A stretch of 58,012 nt of DNA, taken from the NCBI GenBank assembly GCA_025360715.1, contig JANYBS010000052.1:1-58012 (forward strand). Reading direction: 5' to 3'. The position numbers and the translations under genes are program-made. This DNA comes from Candidatus Eiseniibacteriota bacterium. Its GTDB lineage: Bacteria > Eisenbacteria > RBG-16-71-46. Shown piece after piece: positions 6,120-20,666 of this stretch (its first letter is position 1; every line of letters begins with the position of its first letter). The notes under the pieces were generated by a model. It was not told where the DNA came from and did not search any database. It saw nothing but the letters and a program-made list of their open reading frames with translations.

Positions 6120-8828
6120 TCAGCGACCGGCGTCGAGCATGATCGGCGCGCTCATCGCCTGGCCTGGCACGTGCGAGTCGCTCGGACGCAGCCGCAGGCG
6201 TAGGGAATCCCGGGCGGCATCGGGGAGCGCGATGTGCAGCGAGTTCTGCGCCTTGCCGCCCACACGAGTGGCGAGCTTCGCCCAAGGTCCTTCGATGGCC
6301 GGGGCCCACTCGATATCGGCCAGCTCCGGGCCGGTCCACGTGAGCGAGCCGCCTTCACGCGGCCAGTGCGCGGCGTGTACAGGGTTCGAGATCGCGTAGC
6401 GCGGAAACTGGTAAACGAGGAATTGTCCGCCGGGCTGGGTCTCGGGCGCGCCTACGACGAGGCCCGGCACGCCGGGTCCGCCGAGTCCCGGGATGGTCGC
6501 GAGGTCGGTGCCGAAGTTGCCGATCTTCGATGGCCCGACCATGTGCAGATCGGGCGTGTCGTCCATCTGCGGGCCACCATAGAAGACCGAGATACTGCCT
6601 CGAACCGGACCATCGCTGCCGTCGCCGTAGGCGCCCACGAGGATGTCGGGGTGGCCGTCGCCGTTCACGTCGCACGCGGTGAACACATGTCCGAACTTGC
6701 TGTTCGAGCCCTTGCCGCGGAGCACATAGCGCGCGTGGGCATCCAGGTTCTGTCCGCCCAGATAGACCGACACCGTGCCTCCCCACTCCTCGAAGCCCAT
6801 CGCGCGCTCGGCGGCCACCGCATAGTCGTCGATGCCGTCGCCGTTGACGTCGCCGATGCCGCGGATGCAGCAGCCGTACCAGTCGCCCGGTCCGGCGGCG
6901 TACAACTGCAGATCCGGATCGCCGTCCGGATGCGCGCCGCCCAGATAGATGTACGCCTTGCCGGCGACACGGCCTGCCGTGCCGTCCGTGTTCGCGCCGA
7001 CTGCGAAGTCGTCGTACCCGTCGCCATTCACGTCGCCGATGCCCGTTGCGCTGATGCCGAACTGAGTGCCGACCCGGTTCGGGATCAACTCCAGGTCCGG
7101 GGTCGCGCTCAGGTGGGGACGTCCCAGATAGAGATACACGCGGCCGCTGGCCGCACCGTCGCGGCCATCGGTGGGCGCGCTCACCAGGAAGTCGGCGAAA
7201 CCGTCGTGATTGACGTCACCCGCCGACTCGATGTCGAACCCGAACTCGGCCGACGCCCGCGGCGAGCCCAGCTCGAGCGCCGGCAGCGAGTCAGGCTCGG
7301 GCCCGCCCAGATAGATGAACACTTCGCCCGTGCGCGGCACGCCGGCATGGTCGGCGTAGATCGCGCCGATCGCGAAGTCGGGATGATGGTCGCCATTCAC
7401 GTCGCCGATCCCCGCGACGCGGTAGCCGAAGAAGCTGCCGCCCGGCCCGCCGAACGACCGCCACTCGACGAATGTGCCATCGGCGGTGCCGCGCATGAGG
7501 CGCACACGGCCTGAGGGATTCTGCTCGCCCGGAGCGGCGACCAGCAGATCGGGATAGCCGTCTCCATCGACATCGCCCGGAGAGGCAACGCTGAAACCGA
7601 GCATGCCGAGATTCTCGTGGCCGGGCACGCTCTGCACCAGTCGGGACGCGGCGGCGACGCCCACCGGGTGCACGACGTAACGCGGCGCCAGCAGGCCCGG
7701 CAGATAGGTCATGGCGGCCCAGACCGCGGCCGTGAGCACGGCGCCCGAGCCCATGAGCGCAAGCTGCCGGCGTAGCGAGACGCGGCCGAGGGTGGGTGGC
7801 GCGGGTGGCGCGTGGACACCGGCGAGCGCGCGCTCCATCTCGCCGGCATCCGCAAAGCGCCGTGAAGCCGCCGGTTCGAGTGCGCGCTCGATGACTTGAA
7901 CGAGGGCACCGGGCAGATCGGGCCGCCAGTTGCGCAGCGGCGTGCGCTCACTGCGGGCGTGGCGAGCGCGCAGGTCGTCGAGCGAGATGGCTTCGATGGG
8001 GGCGTGGCCGCTCGCCATGCGGTACAAGAGCACGCCGAGCGCGTAGAGATCACTGCGCGTGCTGGCGCTCTCGCCTTCGAGCAGTTCCGGCGCGGCGAAG
8101 AGCGGTGTCGCCCCGGAGGGTCCATCGTTCAAGCCTGCGGTGTCGGTGCGCGAGGCCGCACCGAAGTCCATGAGTACGATGCGGCCCGAACCGGCGGCCG
8201 AGTTTCCGCCCGCGCTGCCCTCGCGCATGACGTTGCGCGTCTTCACGTCGCCGTGAATGAGGCCCGCGTCATGTACGGCCGCCAGCGCGGCGCACAGGTC
8301 CAGGCCCAGCGCGACGAGCTCGCGCGCGCCCATCGGGCCCTGTGTGAACAGGATCTCCTCGAGCGTGCGCCCGCGGATGAGCTCGGTCCAGATGCCGGCG
8401 CGGCCTTCGTGCAGGTCGGTGCCGTGCACCGTGAGCACATGCTCGTGGCGCACGCGCGCCAGGCGCTGGGCCTCGCGCAGCCAGCGCGTGGAGCGCGACG
8501 CGGGCTCGCCAGCGCGGTGCAGCTTGAGGGCTACTTCACGCTCGAGCGAGGAATCCCATGCGCGCCAGACCTCGCCGAAAGCGCCTTGGCCCAGCCGCTC
8601 GACCGCGCGCAGCGGACCCCAGACGAACGTCGCCCGCTCGCGTGTCGTGTTTTCACGCCGGCGGTGGAGCTCGCCTACGCTCTGCAGCTGGCGCAGCGTC
8701 TCGAGCGTGCTATCCAGGTCGCTCGCGCTCTCGCGAGTCGCCTCCCAGTCGACAGGGGCGTCGTCGGCGATCCGCAGTGCGAGTTCGAGCGCGCGCGGAT
8801 CGTCGCCGGCTTCGTCGTCAGGCGTCAT
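6120..8828 (-). CDS. Transmembrane Ser/Thr protein kinase with extracytoplasmic FG-GAP propeller
   Basis: The 902-residue product has a Hanks-type kinase domain: glycine loop GQGAFG at 80-85, ATP lysine in EVALKL (K102), catalytic loop HGDVKTRN at 192-199, DFG at 221-223 and APE at 246-248. The catalytic loop reads HGD where most kinases have HRD. A single hydrophobic segment at about 357-380 follows. Outside it lie seven FG-GAP/integrin-alpha repeats (about 410-800), six with clear D-x-(N/D)-x-D-G calcium loops and a degenerate seventh. The design suggests an external sensor that controls an internal kinase. Its start overlaps the end of the upstream sigma-factor gene by 11 bases, so the two are probably co-translated and functionally linked. 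Ligand and substrates are unknown. Confidence 0.9.
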   Translation of the reverse strand: MTPDDEAGDDPRALELALRIADDAPVDWEATRESASDLDSTLETLRQLQSVGELHRRRENTTRERATFVWGPLRAVERLGQGAFGEVWRAWDSSLEREVALKLHRAGEPASRSTRWLREAQRLARVRHEHVLTVHGTDLHEGRAGIWTELIRGRTLEEILFTQGPMGARELVALGLDLCAALAAVHDAGLIHGDVKTRNVMREGSAGGNSAAGSGRIVLMDFGAASRTDTAGLNDGPSGATPLFAAPELLEGESASTRSDLYALGVLLYRMASGHAPIEAISLDDLRARHARSERTPLRNWRPDLPGALVQVIERALEPAASRRFADAGEMERALAGVHAPPAPPTLGRVSLRRQLALMGSGAVLTAAVWAAMTYLPGLLAPRYVVHPVGVAAASRLVQSVPGHENLGMLGFSVASPGDVDGDGYPDLLVAAPGEQNPSGRVRLMRGTADGTFVEWRSFGGPGGSFFGYRVAGIGDVNGDHHPDFAIGAIYADHAGVPRTGEVFIYLGGPEPDSLPALELGSPRASAEFGFDIESAGDVNHDGFADFLVSAPTDGRDGAASGRVYLYLGRPHLSATPDLELIPNRVGTQFGISATGIGDVNGDGYDDFAVGANTDGTAGRVAGKAYIYLGGAHPDGDPDLQLYAAGPGDWYGCCIRGIGDVNGDGIDDYAVAAERAMGFEEWGGTVSVYLGGQNLDAHARYVLRGKGSNSKFGHVFTACDVNGDGHPDILVGAYGDGSDGPVRGSISVFYGGPQMDDTPDLHMVGPSKIGNFGTDLATIPGLGGPGVPGLVVGAPETQPGGQFLVYQFPRYAISNPVHAAHWPREGGSLTWTGPELADIEWAPAIEGPWAKLATRVGGKAQNSLHIALPDAARDSLRLRLRPSDSHVPGQAMSAPIMLDAGR

Positions 8829-9423
8829 CGCGCATCCTCTCCGCCAGCGCGAGCAGTCCGCGCGCGACCAGCATGCGGGCGGTGTTCGCAGAGTGTTTGC
8901 CCAGGGCGGCGGCGATCTCGGCGTGCGAGTAGTCCATCTCGAGTCGCAGGATCACCGCCTCGCGTTGTTCGTCGCCCAAGCTCTGCAGGCCGCGTTCGTA
9001 GCGCGCGTGCGTGTCGCGTCCGAGCAATTGCTCGATCGGAGAGGGACCGGCATCGGCGAGTGTCTCGGGCACCTCGTCGTGAGGCCGGCGCCGCGCGCCA
9101 CGCCGCGCTTCGTCGCGCGCCGCGTTGAGCAGGATGTGTCGCAGGTAGCCCAGGAACGCGCCTTCGCCGCGATGCTCGAAGTGATCCACGTGCTTGAGCG
9201 TGCGTAGCAACGTGATCTGCACGAGGTCATCCGTTTCGGACAAGTCGCGCGCGGCGTGCGGCAACTGCTGATGCGCCCAGCGCTGCAGGACCGGCAGGAA
9301 GCGCTGGTACAGCCGTTCCCGTGAGCGTTCGTCGCCGCCACGCGCACGTTCGAGCAGGTCGAACGTGTTCTCGAGCGGGTCGCTCGCGGTCTCGTGGCCG
9401 GGGCGTTCTTCTGGAGCTGACAT
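8818..9423 (-). CDS. RNA polymerase sigma factor, ECF-like sigma-70 family
   Basis: The 201-residue protein has a region-2 core (DLVQITLLRTLKHVDHF, about residues 67-83) and a C-terminal region 4 helix-turn-helix (LEMDYSHAEIAAALGKHSAN). The alanine-rich linker and length fit the ECF class. The ATG at 9423 is preceded by GGAG at 9432-9435. The gene overlaps the downstream kinase gene by 11 bases. Sigma factors of this kind are often paired with Ser/Thr kinases in Planctomycetes and FCB lineages, where phosphorylation may replace an anti-sigma factor. No zinc-type anti-sigma gene is adjacent. Its regulon is unknown. Confidence 0.88.
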   Translation of the reverse strand: MSAPEERPGHETASDPLENTFDLLERARGGDERSRERLYQRFLPVLQRWAHQQLPHAARDLSETDDLVQITLLRTLKHVDHFEHRGEGAFLGYLRHILLNAARDEARRGARRRPHDEVPETLADAGPSPIEQLLGRDTHARYERGLQSLGDEQREAVILRLEMDYSHAEIAAALGKHSANTARMLVARGLLALAERMRDDA

Positions 9424-13507: not shown

Positions 13508-15259
13508 TTAGCGCTTGGCCGGACGCCCCACGAACACCTGGCCCTGGCCGCTCAGACGCAATCCGCGGCCCTTCGCATCGGCGAAGGGCGTGAGCGCGAC
13601 GCGCGTGCCATCGAGCAGGTCCCATGCGCCCAGGCCACCTTCGGCGAGGGGGGCCACGGGCAGGATCACCGGCGCAGGCCGTGCGTCATCGGCGGCGACA
13701 TCGATCAGGCCGCCTGCGAGCCACGCGAAGCTCATCTGCGAATCTCCGCGCTTGGAGTGCAGCGTCACATAGGTGCGAAGGCCGCGGTCGAGCCACGGGA
13801 GCGCCGCACTGCCTTCGAGCGCGGCGTCGATGAGTGGGCCATGTGCCTGCTCGTGTGCGGCGAGGATCTCGCGCAGCGCCCGCACCCAACCGCGCTCCAC
13901 CGGCAGCAGCGCATGCGCGAGCGCCGAGTCGTCGTGTGCGGCGGCGGCGCGCAGCAGGTCGGCGGCGCGGCCCTCGACGAGCGCGCGCGTGCCGCTGGAG
14001 TCCGAGCCGAGCACGAGGTTCATGGCCTCGGCGCCCGAGAGTTGCATGCGCAGCCCCGCGCCATCGCGCACGAGTGTCAGGCGGCCGGAGGGCGCGAGCT
14101 GCCACGTGCCGGTCAGGGCGTCGAGCCGGTCGGCGGGCCACTGTACCGTCTCGGGCGGCAGCTCCACCCGCCGGCCCTGCAGCACGCGCGCGATGGCGCG
14201 CTGCACGGCGGCAACCGGCAGCCGGCGGCCCCAGCGCACGCCCGCATTCGTGATGGCGATGATGCGGCGCATGCTGTCGCGCTCCACCCAGAGGCCCGCG
14301 TGGTAGCCCGGGATGTCGCCGCCGATCAACACGAGATCGCTCGCGCCCTCGCGCGGCAAGAGCCAAAGGCCGAAGCCGTAGAAGACCTCGGCGTTCACCT
14401 GCGAGCGGCGCGTGAGCAACGTATCGAGCTCTGCAGAGCCCAGAGTACCGCTGCCCTGCATGCTGCGTCCCCAGCGCCACAGGTCGTGCGCGGTGGTGAC
14501 CAAGTCGCCCGCGCCGCTGCCGGCCCACGGTTGGCGCCAGTCACGGAATGAACCGCTCACGTGCCACTCGTCGCGGCCTGTGGCGGCTTCGCGGCGCTCA
14601 CGCGCGTATGCGCTGCCCGCGCCGCTCTGGCGCATCTGCGCCGGCGCCAGCAGAAGCGAATCGCAGAGTCGCGGCCACGGCGCGCCGCTCACGCGCTCGG
14701 CGATGGCGGCCAGGAGTTGGAATCCGGCGTTGGAGTACACGAAGCGCTCACCGGGCGCGCTCACGAGTCTTGCGCGCAACGTGGCGCGCAGGACCTGGTC
14801 GCGCGAGTCGAGTTCGAATACGCCTTCGGCGTCCTCGGGTAGGCCGGAGCGATGTGCAAGCAACTGCCGCGGCGTGATCGCGGCTTTGTCGGTTGGCACG
14901 CCCGGCAGGAGGCGCGCGAGCGAATCGTCGAGCGAGAGCCGGTGTTCGTGCGCCAGGTGCACGATCAGCGCGGCGGTGAAGCTCTTGGTCACCGAGCCCA
15001 CGGCGAAACCGGTCGTGAGCGTGACCGGCGTTGCGCGGCCATCGGCGCGGCCGAGCGCGCGTTCGGCGAGCACGCTGTCGGCTTCGGAGACCGTGACCTG
15101 GCCGGTGAAGCCGAAGGCGCCCAGGCCGTCGAGATAGCGCGCCAGCGAATCCGCAGCGCCGGCGCTCAACGCATGCGCAGGTGGGGTCACGAGCATCAAG
15201 CTCGCGAAGGCGGCCGCGCACGTGAGGCCCCATGCCGATCGCCGGCGCGCGCGCTTCAG
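13508..15259 (-). CDS. Secreted beta-lactamase-family serine hydrolase, probable CTG start
   Basis: The protein belongs to the beta-lactamase/PBP4 (PF00144) family. Counted from the proposed start it has the S-x-x-K motif SVTK at 89-92, Y-x-N at 175-177 and a later HAG in GYHAGLWV in the KTG position. The frame stays open far upstream inside the preceding gene, but that stretch is an Arg-rich shadow. A CTG at 15257-15259 gives an almost ideal signal peptide (KRARRR, then about 20 hydrophobic residues to AHA). It has GGAG six bases upstream and overlaps the previous stop as CTGA. The next in-frame ATG would cut the signal peptide. The real role may be a D-aminopeptidase, esterase or similar hydrolase acting outside the cytoplasm. 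It is last in the dehydratase operon. Confidence 0.8.
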   Translation of the reverse strand: MKRARRRSAWGLTCAAAFASLMLVTPPAHALSAGAADSLARYLDGLGAFGFTGQVTVSEADSVLAERALGRADGRATPVTLTTGFAVGSVTKSFTAALIVHLAHEHRLSLDDSLARLLPGVPTDKAAITPRQLLAHRSGLPEDAEGVFELDSRDQVLRATLRARLVSAPGERFVYSNAGFQLLAAIAERVSGAPWPRLCDSLLLAPAQMRQSGAGSAYARERREAATGRDEWHVSGSFRDWRQPWAGSGAGDLVTTAHDLWRWGRSMQGSGTLGSAELDTLLTRRSQVNAEVFYGFGLWLLPREGASDLVLIGGDIPGYHAGLWVERDSMRRIIAITNAGVRWGRRLPVAAVQRAIARVLQGRRVELPPETVQWPADRLDALTGTWQLAPSGRLTLVRDGAGLRMQLSGAEAMNLVLGSDSSGTRALVEGRAADLLRAAAAHDDSALAHALLPVERGWVRALREILAAHEQAHGPLIDAALEGSAALPWLDRGLRTYVTLHSKRGDSQMSFAWLAGGLIDVAADDARPAPVILPVAPLAEGGLGAWDLLDGTRVALTPFADAKGRGLRLSGQGQVFVGRPAKR

Positions 15260-16263
15260 AGCGGGCGCTCCTCGAGGATTGCCGCGAGCTTGGCGGGATC
15301 CAGATTTCCGCCCGAGACCACGCACACGAGCGGGCCTTCGGGCAGCGGAAGTTGCGCGCCACCGATGGTGGTGGCGTCGCGGCCGGCGAACGCGGCGGCG
15401 AGCGCGGCAGCGCCGGCGCCCTCGGCGACGACACGCGCGCGCATGACCAGCGCGCGAATGGCGGCGGCGACCTCGTCGACCGAGACCACGCACGTACCGG
15501 CGAGCAGCTCAGAGGCCAGCGGCCACATCTCGGCCAGCACAGCGCTGCCGCCGATGCCGTCGACGAAGCTCGTACGATGCTCGATGCGCTGCGCCGAGCC
15601 GGCGCGCAATGATGCGGCCAGCGGCGCGGCTACGTCGACCTCGCACGCGAACGTGGGCACGCCGCTGCCGGTGGCCGTGAGCGCGGCGGCGATGCCGCAG
15701 CTCAGGCCGCCGCCGCCGTAGGGCACCAGTACCGCGGCTGCATCGGGCAGGTCCTCGAGGATCTCGAGCCCGACGGTGCCGTTGCCCGCGATCACTGCGG
15801 GATCGCTGACCGGATGCACGAAGTGACCGTCGAGTCCGTCGAAGCGGCGCTCGACCAGCACCTGCCACCAGCGGTCGAAGGGCACCACGATGCAGCGGCC
15901 ACCCAGGCGTTCGATCGCGTCGAGCTTGGCGCGCGGCGCGCGGTCGGGGACCACCACGCTGCACGGCACGCCTTCGAGCCGCGCGCACCAGGCGACAGCT
16001 TGCGCCATGTTGCCCGCGCTCGCGGTCCACACGCCCTTGGCGAGCGCGTCGCTCGGCGCGAGTGCGAGCGCGTTGGCGCCGCCGCGGATCTTGAACGAGC
16101 CGATCGGTTGCAGGTTCTCGAGCTTGAGCCATATCTCGCGCTCACCGCTGCGCGCGGGCAGCGCGATCAACGGCGTACGCACCGCGATGCCACGGACGTT
16201 CTCGCGCGCGGCATGGATCTGCTCGAGCGTCGGTGCGTTCAGGATGAAGGCGCCGGCGCTCAT
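15256..16263 (-). CDS. PLP-dependent threonine/serine dehydratase-family enzyme (second copy)
   Basis: The 335-residue protein is a fold-type II PLP enzyme. The Schiff-base lysine is in GSFKIRGG (K58), the substrate-loop ASAGN follows, and the phosphate-binding glycine loop is YGGGGLSCG. The C-terminal SGGN is also present. No ACT regulatory domain follows, so it is like the short catabolic dehydratases, racemases or hydroxyaspartate dehydratases rather than the biosynthetic IlvA. I chose the ATG at 16263 because it overlaps the upstream stop codon (ATGA); the frame could begin nine codons earlier. It is about as long as the paralogue at 17255-18229 but clearly diverged from it, which suggests a different substrate. 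Confidence 0.85.
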   Translation of the reverse strand: MSAGAFILNAPTLEQIHAARENVRGIAVRTPLIALPARSGEREIWLKLENLQPIGSFKIRGGANALALAPSDALAKGVWTASAGNMAQAVAWCARLEGVPCSVVVPDRAPRAKLDAIERLGGRCIVVPFDRWWQVLVERRFDGLDGHFVHPVSDPAVIAGNGTVGLEILEDLPDAAAVLVPYGGGGLSCGIAAALTATGSGVPTFACEVDVAAPLAASLRAGSAQRIEHRTSFVDGIGGSAVLAEMWPLASELLAGTCVVSVDEVAAAIRALVMRARVVAEGAGAAALAAAFAGRDATTIGGAQLPLPEGPLVCVVSGGNLDPAKLAAILEERPL

Positions 16264-17258
16264 GAAGCGGGCCCGCCCCATTCGAGCCACGTTCCGGTAC
16301 CGGTCGCCTGGGCGCGCGCGTGGATGAAGTGTGCGGCTGCCAGGTCCTCGAGCGCGATGCCAAGCGACTCGTACAGCGTCACGTCGTCCGCAGAGACGCG
16401 GCCGGCGATCTTGCCCGTGAGCACATCGCCCAACTCGCCGAGCAGGTGGGACTCGGTGATCGCGCCCTCCGCTAGCGGCAGGCGATAGTCACCCGCTTCG
16501 TTCACGCAGGACTCGCGGCAATCCGTGAACAGCCGCGCGCGCTGCACCGCATCGGTGTCGAGTTCGCGCGCCAAGGGGAAACATGCGCCCACGGCGTTCA
16601 CATGCGTGCCGGCACTCAGCCACGCGCCCTTCACGACCGGTTCGCGCGACGACGTGGTGGTGCACACCAAGTCGGCGCCGCGCACGGCTTCCTCGGGGCT
16701 GGCCATGACTTCGATGGGTACGGGCGAGAGCGCCGCGTGCGTGCGGGCGAATCGTTCGCCGTTCTCGCGCGCGCGGCTGTGCACGCGCACGCGCCTCAGG
16801 GTGCGCACGCACGCCATGGCCTGCAGATGCGTTCGCGCCTGCGTGCCGGTGCCGATAAGGGCCAGATCGCCGGCATCCGCGCGTGCGAGAACCTGCGTGG
16901 CCAAGCCCGAGGCCGCGGCCGTGCGGATGGCGGTGATCGCAGTCGCGTCGAGGATCGCGATGGGCTCGCCATGCAAGGCGCCGAAGAGCATCACCACGCC
17001 CTGATGCGAGTCGTACGCGGTGCCATGATTGTGCGGCATGACGCTCACGACCTTGAGCCCGAAGGCCTGCGGATCGCCAAGATAGCCGGGCATCAGCCCG
17101 AGCAAGCCGGACTGATCCGGCAGCCGCATGAGGCTGCGAAGCGGCAGCACCACATGGCCATTGGCGAGCGCGGTCAATGCCTGGCGCATGAGATCGATGC
17201 AGTCGCGCATGGGCAAGAGTTCCTGTACGCCCGCTTCGTTCACGAACAGCACCTTCAC
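16260..17258 (-). CDS. Ornithine cyclodeaminase / mu-crystallin family NAD(P)-dependent enzyme
   Basis: The 332-residue protein has the family's N-terminal substrate domain (PLRSLMRLPDQSG) and a Rossmann domain with the dinucleotide loop LIGTGTQA (about 134-141). SGTHVNAVGA-like (here SAGTHVNAVGAC) and the C-terminal YESLG element are also typical. Family members include ornithine cyclodeaminase, alanine dehydrogenase, ketimine reductase, iminosuccinate reductase (BhcD) and the ectoine-pathway EutC. The gene overlaps both neighbours by four bases (ATGA at each end) and lies between two dehydratases. That context favours an imine-reducing or deaminating role on the amino acid handled by the dehydratases over a role in proline synthesis, but the substrate is not fixed by sequence. 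Confidence 0.87.
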   Translation of the reverse strand: MKVLFVNEAGVQELLPMRDCIDLMRQALTALANGHVVLPLRSLMRLPDQSGLLGLMPGYLGDPQAFGLKVVSVMPHNHGTAYDSHQGVVMLFGALHGEPIAILDATAITAIRTAAASGLATQVLARADAGDLALIGTGTQARTHLQAMACVRTLRRVRVHSRARENGERFARTHAALSPVPIEVMASPEEAVRGADLVCTTTSSREPVVKGAWLSAGTHVNAVGACFPLARELDTDAVQRARLFTDCRESCVNEAGDYRLPLAEGAITESHLLGELGDVLTGKIAGRVSADDVTLYESLGIALEDLAAAHFIHARAQATGTGTWLEWGGPAS

Positions 17259-18229
17259 GCGGCACCTCCGGAGGTGGAGAACAGTGCCAGCAGCCGTTCG
17301 GGATCCACGTTGCCGCCCGAGACGATCGAGACCACACGGCTGCCGGGGGCCACCGACTTCACTTTGCCCGCGAGCAGCGCAGCCGTGGCCGCGGCGCCAG
17401 AGCCTTCCACATAGAGTTTGGCGCGCAGCAACAGCATTCGCATGGCGTGCATGATCTCGTCCTCGGTCACGAGCACGATCTCATCCACACATTCGCGCGC
17501 CACCTGAAGTGGATGCGCGCCTACGAACGGCGGCGTGAGCCCGTCGGCGAGCGTACGGGGCCGTGGCACCGGGACGCTCTTGCCTGCGGCGAGCGCCGGC
17601 GTCATGCCCGGGCCGGCCTCGAGTTCGACGCCGACCACCTTACATTGCGGGCGCAGCGCCTTGATGGCGCATGCGACGCCGGCCATGAGTCCGCCGCCGC
17701 CGATCGCGACGACCACGACGTCGGTCTGTGGCGCCTGCTCCAGGATCTCGAGCCCGGTCGTGCCCGCGCCGGCCAGACCGGTGAGGTCATCGAAGGGGTG
17801 CACGAAGAACGCGCCGCTGCGCGCTTCTTCCTCACGCAGGCGGTCGAACAATGTCGCGCGGTCCTCGTGCGCGATGATCGTGGCGCCATACCCGCGCACG
17901 GCGTCCATCTTGGACCGCGGCGCATCGCTGGGCATGACCACGGTGCACGGCACACCGGCTTCGCGCGCGGCCCACGCCACGGCACCGGCGTGGTTTCCGG
18001 CCGAGACGGACACGAGACCCTTGGCGCGCCTCTCGGGCGTGAGCGAGAGGATGATGTTGAGCGCGCCGCGCGGCTTGAACGAACCGGTCTTCTGGAAGCT
18101 CTCGCACTTGAGCTGCAGCGCCACGCCGGCGGCGTCGCCCAAAGTGCGCGAAGAGAGCATCGGCGTGCGGTGCAGCCGCGGCGCGATACGCGCTGCCGCT
18201 TCACGGATCGACTCGAGGGAGATGAGCAT
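17255..18229 (-). CDS. Threonine ammonia-lyase-family PLP enzyme (first copy)
   Basis: The 324-residue protein is a fold-type II PLP enzyme with the lysine in KTGSFKPRGA (K52), the SAGNHAGAVA loop, the glycine phosphate loop IGGGGLMAG and the C-terminal SGGN. The sequence is closer to catabolic threonine dehydratase/serine racemase (TdcB type) than the second copy in this operon. There is no ACT domain, so feedback control by isoleucine is unlikely. It is the first gene of a run of four on the minus strand whose coding regions all overlap by four bases, which implies strict co-translation. Expected chemistry is beta-elimination of threonine, serine or 3-hydroxyaspartate to an oxo acid and ammonia. 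Confidence 0.87.
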   Translation of the reverse strand: MLISLESIREAAARIAPRLHRTPMLSSRTLGDAAGVALQLKCESFQKTGSFKPRGALNIILSLTPERRAKGLVSVSAGNHAGAVAWAAREAGVPCTVVMPSDAPRSKMDAVRGYGATIIAHEDRATLFDRLREEEARSGAFFVHPFDDLTGLAGAGTTGLEILEQAPQTDVVVVAIGGGGLMAGVACAIKALRPQCKVVGVELEAGPGMTPALAAGKSVPVPRPRTLADGLTPPFVGAHPLQVARECVDEIVLVTEDEIMHAMRMLLLRAKLYVEGSGAAATAALLAGKVKSVAPGSRVVSIVSGGNVDPERLLALFSTSGGAA

Positions 18230-18262: not shown

Positions 18263-20617
18263 TCAAGGCTTTCCGCTGCGCTCCGGGTACGGTCGCTGCG
18301 GACCTTTGATCATGGCCCACAATTGGCGATTGAATCGGTCCTCGTCGCGCGGGTCCTCGCGGCGCAGGTCGAGTGGCTCCAGCACGCCCGTGCGAGCGGG
18401 CTCCGGCGGGTTGCGATCCTGCAGCGGCACACCCGGCGTGATCGCGGTGTACGGCGTCAGGTCGGGTGCGGCGGCGAAGACCCCGGCGAGCGAGCGCGCG
18501 AATCGGTCGTAGTGCGACAGTGGATGCAGGTGCAGGATGCGGCCGATGGCGGCGAGCACGTCGGTCGTGTTCGCGAAGTCATGCTGGACGCCGGGGCGGT
18601 TGTACGGCGAGACGACGAACAATGGCGAGCGATGCGAGTCCACATGGTCCGGCCCGTCCTGCGCGTCATCCTCGAGCACGAACACCACTGTGCGCGCCCA
18701 GAACCGAGAGTGACTGAGCGCGTCGATCACCCGGCCCAGCGCAAGGTCGTTGTCGGCCAGCATGGCGCGCGGCGTGGGCATGTCGGGAGCGCTGCCCGCG
18801 GTGTGGTCGTTCGGCAGCCGCATGATGGTGAGTTGCGGCATGCGGCCCGTGCGCTCCTGATCACGGAATTCCGCGAGCCAGGCGTCGGCGCGCTTCTGAT
18901 CGGGCACCTTGAGGTCCCAGCCCGGGCTCGAGGCGCTCGTGAACGGCGCGAGCGATCGCTTGTCGGCGACCCAGCGACCCAGCGAATCCTGATGCGTGAA
19001 CTCACCGTGGTTGCGCAGGCTCACATGCGCACGGATCGCGGCGTCCCACAGATAACCCTGACCCGGTTCGGCGGCATCGTCGTCCGTCGGCTGGTCGCGG
19101 TTCACGCCTTCGAAGTCGTAGCTGCGGCCGCGATCGGAATAGACACTGGGGATCGTCTTCTCGACGTAGTCCGAACAGTAGGCCGCGGTCGACCAATTGT
19201 GACCCTGCCCGCTCACCTCGGCGTTCACGTGGAAGCGGTCGAAGAGACCGAAGCGTTCCGCGAGAGAATGGTGATTCGGCGTGACGCTACGCGGGAAGTA
19301 GACCAGCGAGGTGTCGCCGTCACCTTGGCTCATGTCCCCAAGGATCTGGTCGTAGGTGCGGTTCTCCTTGATGATGTAGACCACGTGGGTGAAGGGCGGG
19401 TACTTCGCCCCTTGGCGCGGCACGTTCCAGCCCTGCGAGCGGCCGACTCGCGGGGTGAGCGCGCGAAGCGACTGCCGATCGGGCCGGTCCATCACCAGGA
19501 GCGACCCGGTCAACTGTCCCATCGCTGTCTGTCCGGTGGGATGGACTCGGTGATCGCCCGGCTGACCGTGGCCCGGATTCGGCGCGGAGCCGGCGCCCTT
19601 GCCGTCGATCACCAGCACGCGCCCGCCGCGCTCGATGACGCCGGTGGGATACCACTCGACCGGGATGCGGCCGAGCAGGCGCGTTGCGGGCCTACTCGTC
19701 GCATCACCCACAGCGAATATGGCGACAGCGTCGTGGTCGGCTTCGGCCACGTAGAGCCGCCGGCCATCGGCCGAGAGCCCCAAGCCGTCCGGAGTCGCGC
19801 CTTCGCTGGGTGCGCCGGCGAGCGTGTCGCGGATCTCGCCGATGAGCTGGTGGCGCTGCGTGTCGATGATCGCGATGCGGTCGTAGCTCGCGCGCGCGGC
19901 GTAGAGGCGTGTGCCGTCGGCGCTGAGCGCCAACGCCGACGGATGCTCGCCGCACGCGATGAACGCTCCGGGCGACAGGCCCGCGGTGCTGCGAGTGAAG
20001 GTCGCGATCGCGTTGCCGCCCCACGCGGATACGTACACGCTGCCGTCGGGGCCGCTCAACACGCCGTATGGATAGCGCCCCGTGGCGAACCGCTGCACGA
20101 CCTTGGCAGTTGCGAGGTCGATGACGGCCAGGGAGTCGGCCAGGTTCTCGGCCACGAACAGGAACCGTCCGTCGCGCGAGACCGCGAGTCCCGCAGGGTA
20201 GCGGACGCCGAGTGCGGCGCTGTCCGCAGGCGCCAGCGCAAGGCTGTCGCGCAGCGTCGCGGCGCCGCCTTTCCAGTCGTAGCGATAGATCACATCGCGA
20301 TAGCCGCCGCTGGCATAGAGGACGCGGCCGTCGGGCGAGAAGGCCAGACCGAAGAACGCCGCGGGCTGCGCCAAGGTCTGCGTGACCTGCCCGCTTGGGA
20401 TGTCGACCACCTGGACGCCCTGCGTGCCCCGGCCACAGAGCAGCACCACCACACGCGAGGAGTCGGGACTGGGGATGACGCGAAGCGGCATGGCCCCGAG
20501 CGCGATGCGTGTGCCGGCGGGATCGAGGCGCGCGCCGGTCGGCAAGCGGTGCGGCGCCGGCGCTGCGTGCGCGGTGGCGAGCACCGCCAGCAAGCCGAAG
20601 CCCGCGAGTCGCGCCAT
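18263..20617 (-). CDS. Secreted YncE-like beta-propeller fused to a phosphoesterase domain
   Basis: The 784-residue protein begins with a short signal peptide (ARLAGFGLLAVLATAHA). The ATG at 20617 has GAGG upstream; another in-frame ATG exists at 20659. Residues about 40-370 form a lactonase/YncE-type beta-propeller with repeats such as FSPDGRVLYASGG and LSADGTRLYAAR. From about 400 the sequence is a phosphoesterase of the alkaline phosphatase superfamily (PF04185 type: THVVYIIKENRTYDQILGD, GHNWSTAAYCSDY, VVFVLEDDAQDGPDHVDSHRSP). Metal ligands would be the Asp/His residues of the last motif. This fusion is known in Acidobacteria and FCB lineages and may hydrolyse phosphate esters outside the cell, but the substrate is unknown. 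The small DUF2934 gene lies directly upstream on the same strand. Confidence 0.85.
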   Translation of the reverse strand: MARLAGFGLLAVLATAHAAPAPHRLPTGARLDPAGTRIALGAMPLRVIPSPDSSRVVVLLCGRGTQGVQVVDIPSGQVTQTLAQPAAFFGLAFSPDGRVLYASGGYRDVIYRYDWKGGAATLRDSLALAPADSAALGVRYPAGLAVSRDGRFLFVAENLADSLAVIDLATAKVVQRFATGRYPYGVLSGPDGSVYVSAWGGNAIATFTRSTAGLSPGAFIACGEHPSALALSADGTRLYAARASYDRIAIIDTQRHQLIGEIRDTLAGAPSEGATPDGLGLSADGRRLYVAEADHDAVAIFAVGDATSRPATRLLGRIPVEWYPTGVIERGGRVLVIDGKGAGSAPNPGHGQPGDHRVHPTGQTAMGQLTGSLLVMDRPDRQSLRALTPRVGRSQGWNVPRQGAKYPPFTHVVYIIKENRTYDQILGDMSQGDGDTSLVYFPRSVTPNHHSLAERFGLFDRFHVNAEVSGQGHNWSTAAYCSDYVEKTIPSVYSDRGRSYDFEGVNRDQPTDDDAAEPGQGYLWDAAIRAHVSLRNHGEFTHQDSLGRWVADKRSLAPFTSASSPGWDLKVPDQKRADAWLAEFRDQERTGRMPQLTIMRLPNDHTAGSAPDMPTPRAMLADNDLALGRVIDALSHSRFWARTVVFVLEDDAQDGPDHVDSHRSPLFVVSPYNRPGVQHDFANTTDVLAAIGRILHLHPLSHYDRFARSLAGVFAAAPDLTPYTAITPGVPLQDRNPPEPARTGVLEPLDLRREDPRDEDRFNRQLWAMIKGPQRPYPERSGKP

Positions 20618-20666
20618 GAGGGAGGACCTCGTAGCGTTGCGTCGCGGGCTCAGGTTCATCGCCGGC

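Follow-up and report, generated by a model that had tools for sequence, protein, structure and literature searches.

What joins two pyridoxal 5'-phosphate (PLP)-dependent dehydratases to a member of the ornithine cyclodeaminase family in one run of overlapping genes, and does such a set belong to a pathway that has already been described? The question is raised by a minus-strand locus in a Candidatus Eiseniibacteriota bacterium (G000 in our numbering; a draft genome of 4.29 Mb with a completeness of 96%), whose closest named relatives, as judged by these genes, are Candidatus Eisenbacteria. The stretch of DNA analysed, referred to here as the window, comprises 58,012 nucleotides of contig JANYBS010000052.1. 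Four genes had been proposed from its letters alone (the original prediction), and their coordinates hold, the families being borne out by Pfam. They are TD1 (17255-18229; 324 amino acids), a TdcB-like fold-type II PLP dehydratase (PALP, 262 bits); OCD (16260-17258; 332 amino acids from a GTG start), of the ornithine cyclodeaminase/mu-crystallin family (OCD_Mu_crystall, 260 bits); TD2 (15256-16263; 335 amino acids), a diverged fold-type II PLP dehydratase (PALP, 209 bits); and a secreted beta-lactamase-fold serine hydrolase (13508-15259; 583 amino acids from a CTG start; Beta-lactamase, 159 bits).

TD1, OCD and TD2 are a conserved module, inherited in a nearly all-or-none manner beyond what chance would give. 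Enzymes of these families are known to work side by side in two pathways; the trio corresponds to neither and, on sequence grounds, probably marks an undescribed route for hydroxylated amino acids. Our preferred, though still tentative, reading, guided by sequence and by analogy, is that a dehydratase and ketimine-reductase couple would here remove a beta-hydroxyl group while the nitrogen is kept.

Co-inheritance and gene order

The search for the module covered 59 genomes, namely the window genome, 46 others of its class and 12 distant ones, and was made with each protein. Orthologues were accepted at identities of at least 60% for TD1, 50% for OCD and 55% for TD2, thresholds chosen after the gap between orthologues and paralogues was known; the match lists held only matches with E<=1e-60, and short fragments may be missed. 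At these thresholds TD2 is carried by 18 genomes, TD1 by 16 and OCD by 15, and all three genes are present in 14 of the 59, none in 41 and some in four. Among these partial carriers, G009 has TD1 and TD2 on an assembly in which the contig stops inside TD1, G011 (80% complete) has TD2 alone, G016 has TD1 and TD2 together with an OCD relative at 45% elsewhere, and G018 (65% complete) has TD2 and OCD. The association of OCD with TD2 is strong over the 59 genomes (Fisher p=2e-11) and within the 20 genomes of the window's family (p=0.002, and p=0.0005 for TD1 with TD2), but the compared genomes are kin and such p values overstate their independence, a point that tells against our reading. The four other members of the window's own genus (G001-G004) carry none of the three genes at the thresholds.

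The three genes are consecutive, in the order TD1-OCD-TD2, in seven of the 14 complete genomes (the window genome, G012, G023, G035, G037, G039 and G041). In G017 a TD1-OCD pair adjoins a divergent TD2. In G007 the contig ends bearing TD1 and OCD-TD2 have an exact stretch of 141 bases in common, and for this reason probably represent a single locus in which TD1 and OCD are some 1.5 kb apart. One gene lies apart from the other two in five complete genomes, either TD1, on another long contig, from an OCD-TD2 pair (G027) or TD2 from a TD1-OCD pair (G019, G030, G033 and G043), and these split loci therefore link OCD to each dehydratase in turn.

In the window all junctions had been described as overlaps of four bases. 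Two of the three are solid, the stop of TD1 and the start of OCD sharing GTGA (17255-17258) and the stop of OCD and the start of TD2 sharing ATGA (16260-16263). The third, a CTGA (15256-15259) between the stop of TD2 and the putative start of the hydrolase, is uncertain because it needs a CTG start and because the hydrolase frame continues without a stop upstream as far as a GTG at 15493.

When one genome per species was scanned with an alignment of TD2, 416 relatives were returned, the best 80 of which were taken as named loci, and TD1, OCD and TD2 were placed in the related loci by tblastn. In 40 of the 80, OCD immediately precedes TD2 in the same orientation; six more are cut by the start of the contig, and wherever the pair is present its order is identical, OCD lying upstream of TD2 (40 of 40). 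Eight phyla are represented among the titles of the records that contain the pair, namely Eisenbacteria, Gemmatimonadota, Acidobacteriota, Planctomycetota, Chloroflexota, Bacteroidota, Actinomycetota and KSB1; whether a ninth should be counted is doubtful, since the OCD of a locus titled Poribacteria (L090) is nearly identical to that of one titled bacterium HR33 (L086). A cultured carrier of TD2 is Gemmatirosa kalamazoonensis, in which the gene is located on a plasmid. The full TD1-OCD-TD2 order is found in KSB1 (L064, with OCD recovered as two tblastn pieces) and in Bacteroidota (L085, L101 and L103).

Clades and active-site residues

None of the three proteins reaches the cut-off of an NCBIfam model (among the best 25 of 42 models for TD1, all 14 for OCD and the best 25 of 33 for TD2). 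Trees were built after the removal of matches shorter than 250 residues. The larger dehydratase tree comprised a random draw of 32 of the 90 TD2 rows together with all 16 TD1 rows and references, and the tree for the approximately unbiased (AU) tests contained 14 random TD2 rows with the window and Gemmatirosa rows; IlvA, TD_Parab, TDx_SmelpSymA and the second hits of L053, L126 and L115 were not part of the latter, whose groups were chosen once the first tree was known. TD2 forms a clade of its own (support 99/97), apart from BhcB, EutB and TD1, and the AU tests reject its union with any of the three (p-AU 2e-6, 5e-6 and 1e-5, respectively). In the larger tree a Paraburkholderia enzyme with a GNF loop and a long branch (TD_Parab) falls inside the TD2 group, with a support of 81. 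The TD1 proteins from KSB1, from Bacteroidota and of the window type likewise form one clade (95/87 in the AU-test tree; 85 by the Shimodaira-Hasegawa-like approximate likelihood ratio test, SH-aLRT, in the larger tree, where the TD1-type hits of L053 and L126 lie outside the module TD1). Grouping of TD1 with BhcB is rejected (p-AU 0.006), whereas its grouping with EutB is not (p-AU 0.14). TD1-related matches at 40-45% are found in many relatives.

Both dehydratases retain the PLP lysine and the GGGG and SGGN motifs, the residues of fold-type II threonine/serine dehydratases. In TD2 the relevant sites are K58 (the PLP lysine), SAGNMAQ at 82-88, W132-W133, GGGG at 183-186 and SGGN at 317-320. 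Throughout 35 aligned TD2 proteins the lysine, GGGG and SGGN are kept, one G of the latter at the level of at least 90%, W132 is invariant and W133 is conserved in at least 90%, while SAGNM occurs in 80 of 82 TD2-type tblastn stretches. The loop reads SAGNH in TD1 and SAGNM in TD2, and the metal position is occupied by Gly and Pro, respectively. BhcB's Arg is aligned with a Trp of TD2, the exact column being uncertain by one owing to gap placement. The Met and the two Trp at the predicted active-site positions of TD2 suggest a substrate with a hydrophobic, aromatic or polyol side chain, and not one with a second carboxylate. For the second serine of the loop, the Arg and the metal-site Asp we assume the catalytic roles that these residues have in serine racemase. 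The second racemase serine is replaced by Ala in both TD1 and TD2, which, if its role is as we assume, makes racemase-like chemistry unlikely in either enzyme. The predicted structure of TD2 (mean predicted local distance difference test score, pLDDT, 92.9) has TdcB as its nearest fold, with a template modelling (TM) score of 0.85 at about 31% identity. A single-sequence search with TD1 places it marginally nearer to maize serine racemase than to TdcB. The window genome also encodes a third dehydratase-type enzyme (G000:C97:25252-26214), with SSGNH and a metal-type Asp, residues of the racemase or BhcB kind.

The OCD tree contained 17 of the 43 OCD rows, and in the AU tests three window-type OCD rows were constrained to group with BhcD (rejected, p-AU 6e-6) or with EutC (rejected, p-AU 9e-5). 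The position that we take to be that of the catalytic Asp of the cyclodeaminases (D228 of the Pseudomonas putida enzyme) is occupied by Asp in none of the 43 OCD proteins, 30 of which have Ser and 13, including that of the window, Cys, whereas every one of the six reference sequences has the Asp (two of BhcD, three of EutC and one from Deinococcus). In profile alignments mu-crystallin has Ser at this position and the Thermococcus litoralis reductase Val. Since this Asp is missing, a direct conversion of ornithine to proline is unlikely, and a proline-forming ornithine cyclodeaminase was discarded as the identity of OCD; the ornithine cyclodeaminase label given by the family models is contradicted by the residues of the protein itself. 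The predicted structure (pLDDT 93.7) is closest to the T. litoralis pyrroline-2-carboxylate reductase 6t3e (TM 0.95, root-mean-square deviation 1.4 A) and next to mu-crystallin, with iminosuccinate reductase at rank 14 and ornithine cyclodeaminase at rank 29, and the profile matches are also nearest to pyrroline-2-carboxylate/ketimine reductases. The best reading of model and sequence is that OCD is a predicted pyrroline-2-carboxylate/ketimine-reductase-like enzyme.

The original prediction had held that a new route would be refuted if all three enzymes fell among ordinary TdcB proteins and proline-forming cyclodeaminases. The outcome is divided, OCD escaping to the ketimine-reductase side and the dehydratases, with TdcB nearest to them, partly coming under that description.

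A possible reaction sequence and its alternatives

Because precedents exist for a dehydratase working with an OCD-family reductase, we infer that the dehydratase and reductase activities predicted here act in sequence, on beta-hydroxy amino acids. TD2 would take water off a beta-hydroxy-alpha-amino acid by PLP-dependent beta-elimination, yielding an enamine or imine; TD1 would be a second dehydratase, of different or overlapping substrate, also feeding OCD; and OCD, as an NAD(P)H-dependent ketimine reductase, would convert the imine, or a cyclic ketimine, to a saturated amino acid. On balance the hydroxyl would be lost and the alpha-nitrogen retained, such that a beta-hydroxy amino acid would become a plain one. 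TD2 and OCD are both small and probably soluble. A bolder form of the proposal, which we think possible but would not ourselves expect, is that of an undescribed pathway widely distributed among phyla of soil and sediment, most of them uncultured, in which two dehydratases and one ketimine reductase would turn diverse beta-hydroxy amino acids (perhaps aromatic or derived from amino sugars) into ordinary ones with no release of ammonia, TD2 representing a new family with a Trp pocket.

Besides the kinship of the compared genomes, several observations weigh against such a coupling. TdcB is the closest solved relative by profile of both TD1 and TD2, and the products of TdcB, a 2-oxo acid and ammonia, are released without the help of a reductase. 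TD2 is without an adjacent OCD in 34 of the 80 named loci, and its surroundings vary: a POT peptide transporter lies 3' of TD2 in seven Gemmatimonadota loci (L063, L098, L099, L102, L105, L106 and L108; one representative checked), a creatininase-family gene lies directly upstream in L063, L098 and L102 (one representative checked), and in L091, L096, L100, L104, L111 and L119, all titled Anaerolineae or Chloroflexi, a galactonate-dehydratase-like gene of the enolase superfamily replaces OCD directly upstream, the one enolase checked being below the NCBIfam cut-offs. To judge by these arrangements TD2 can apparently work in settings without OCD, which fits a general dehydratase equally well. 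Nor was a conserved neighbour pointing to the substrate found in the related loci, for which the lists of neighbours are incomplete, simple open reading frame calling missing many genes in this high-GC DNA. When the neighbours of 89 loci are clustered, the dehydratases (86) and OCD (45) are followed by ABC-transporter ATPases (14), the next cluster counting 9; and no neighbour recurring beyond near relatives was seen among 30 loci with OCD-TD2 or TD1-OCD-TD2, several of which have no candidates and many of whose candidates are doubtful frames.

The likeliest alternative is one of uncoupled salvage, in which TD1 and TD2 would be ammonia-lyases of the serine/threonine type and OCD an independent ketimine reductase or amino acid dehydrogenase, all of them degrading peptide-derived amino acids. 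It is consistent with the proximity of both dehydratases to TdcB by profile, and of TD2 also by fold, and with the finding that, where OCD is not adjacent, TD2 adjoins the POT transporter (seven loci) or an alpha/beta hydrolase (two loci; the one checked has a below-cut-off similarity to proline iminopeptidases). Yet the near all-or-none trio and the constant OCD-TD2 order in 40 loci are tighter than a loose catabolic grouping requires, and we consider this explanation a real but doubtful one.

A supply of proline, with OCD acting as a pyrroline-2-carboxylate reductase in place of the glutamate route and the dehydratases either making its substrate or being accessory, appears improbable. The nearest relative of OCD is indeed the T. 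litoralis reductase of this specificity, proA is above the cut-off in none of the 47 class genomes (G000-G046) and proC has no match in the window genome; but proC is absent from 8 of 15 genomes with OCD as against 19 of 32 without it (p=0.76, and p=0.34 within the family; G002 was scored as a carrier though its match is split and below the cut-off), PF05544, the hydroxyproline partner, is absent from the window genome and has a full-length match in none of the 14 complete-trio genomes, and OCD is devoid of the cyclodeaminase Asp. Hydroxyproline degradation was rejected as a role for OCD on the same absence of the proline-racemase family from the window genome and, at full length, from the 14 trio genomes. 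Proline synthesis with no evident proA (0 of 47), and in the window genome also with no proC match, is an observation in its own right on this class.

In the original prediction the four genes might form a salvage operon whose exported hydrolase frees the substrate. From the CTG start the N-terminus of the hydrolase resembles a signal peptide (KRARRR, followed by a hydrophobic stretch and AHA), and its SVTK at 89-92 and YSN at 175-177 are of the SxxK and YxN types, features which, with the possible four-base overlap, favour that proposal. The CTG start is, however, a requirement of it, and a search of 100 related loci, of which 92 are distinct, gave no match to the hydrolase, an absence that falls short of full proof because some of the loci are truncated downstream of TD2. 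This part of the prediction has thus fared badly: we rate the four-gene operon very unlikely, and the hydrolase is probably a local addition outside the conserved module.

The least probable, and to us barely credible, is an SbnA/SbnB-like synthesis of 2,3-diaminopropionate, in which TD2 would aminate an activated serine and OCD oxidatively cleave the adduct, since a serine kinase gene that, in one genus, precedes OCD-TD2 or TD2 and some similarity of OCD to SbnB are set against low scores (TD1 71 of 350 bits on SbnA, OCD 163 of 327 on SbnB, and SbnA not among the best 25 of the 33 models for TD2), a TD2 that is of the TdcB and not the cysteine-synthase type, and a kinase that is located elsewhere in the window genome and occurs also in relatives without the module. 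The kinase in question resembles the free serine kinases SbnI and SerK; it lies directly upstream of OCD-TD2 or TD2 at L032:6627-7493, L040:1606-2481 and L045:1130-2032, and in the window genome, away from the module, at G000:C1:5407-6261. It has matches in 30 of the 59 genomes, some of which are without the module, and belongs to no Pfam family at E<=0.1.

Elsewhere in the window, a gene of the beta-propeller and phosphoesterase families (18263-20662, minus strand, start uncertain) ends 33 bases 5' of TD1 on the same strand and may share a transcript with it; in the related loci it was not found beside the module, its only matches being two weak ones (26%) at other places in L063 and L098. 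Further along the minus strand, at 6120-9423, a gene resembling those of extracytoplasmic function (ECF) sigma factors (8818-9423) overlaps a frame of 902 amino acids (6120-8828) by 11 bases.

Comparison with known systems

Among single enzymes, serine racemase was rejected as a model for either dehydratase, their loops being SAGNH (TD1) and SAGNM (TD2) and not SSGNH, with Gly or Pro instead of the metal-site Asp. TdcB shares with both the SAGN beginning of the loop; TD2 differs from it in having Met for His, a Trp pair and a clade of its own. The sister clade of TD2 is formed by PLP enzymes on plasmids of Aminobacter, Diaphorobacter and Ensifer (L149, L150 and L156), which share the GNM and WW features but are only 41-43% identical, with SSGNM and no VDG motif. 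These are clustered with kynureninase (kynU) and ABC transporter genes, no OCD being annotated in the stretches read, and we know of no dehydratase role in kynureninase clusters. OCD, for its part, is only 36% identical to 6t3e in spite of a TM score of 0.95, and most of the proteins of its kind (30 of 43) resemble mu-crystallin in having Ser at the cyclodeaminase Asp position.

Reductions of the kind proposed for OCD have precedents. In the 3-hydroxyproline route, dehydration and tautomerisation to a ketimine are followed by reduction by OCD-family enzymes (PMC4113996), and mu-crystallin and iminosuccinate reductase, both of the OCD family, are described as weakly reducing a non-native imine (PMC11876095). 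In the 3-hydroxyproline route it is a partner of the proline-racemase family that makes the pyrroline-2-carboxylate, and this partner is absent from the window genome. Among open-licence papers, judged by their titles and the beginnings of their abstracts, we recognised no description of the TD1-OCD-TD2 trio.

Ectoine breakdown is the first of the two pathways in which a dehydratase gene and an OCD-family gene are adjacent, as they are in the module. For hydroxyectoine a dehydration by EutB and a reduction by EutC have been proposed, a step which the review calls not biochemically evaluated (PMC5924519). The EutB-EutC order is the same as that of TD1-OCD and the reverse of that of OCD-TD2; EutB has an STGNH loop, and EutC retains the cyclodeaminase Asp which the window OCD is without. 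On the EutB model TD1 scores 274 and TD2 206 of the 413 bits required, and on the EutC model OCD scores 189 of 472; in the window genome the best match to ectoine hydrolase reaches 52 bits where 613 are required, and no ectoine gene was recognised among those window genes that were read. The earlier claim that the pair is not that of ectoine breakdown accordingly holds for TD2 and OCD, which the clade tests separate from EutB and EutC, and is less secure for TD1, whose grouping with EutB was not rejected.

The beta-hydroxyaspartate cycle, which the original prediction had rightly set apart, is the second. The BhcB model, with a cut-off of 550 bits, gives 266 to TD1 and 154 to TD2, and the BhcD model, with one of 500, gives 162 to OCD; the clade tests described above reject all three groupings, and PF14031, which we take to be a marker of BhcC, has no match in the window genome. 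At the sites where TD2 carries SAGNM, Pro and Trp, the residues of BhcB are SSGNH, a metal-type Asp and an Arg. BhcB and BhcD convert 3-hydroxyaspartate to aspartate, and they resemble the proposed module in that a TD-family dehydratase is combined, by the same chemical logic, with an OCD-family imine reductase. If our reading is correct, TD1, OCD and TD2 would be a further couple of this kind after BhcB/BhcD and the proposed EutB/EutC, one that spans several phyla with few cultured members and that would supply a clade of genes with a function where the family models offer only threonine/serine dehydratase and ornithine cyclodeaminase.

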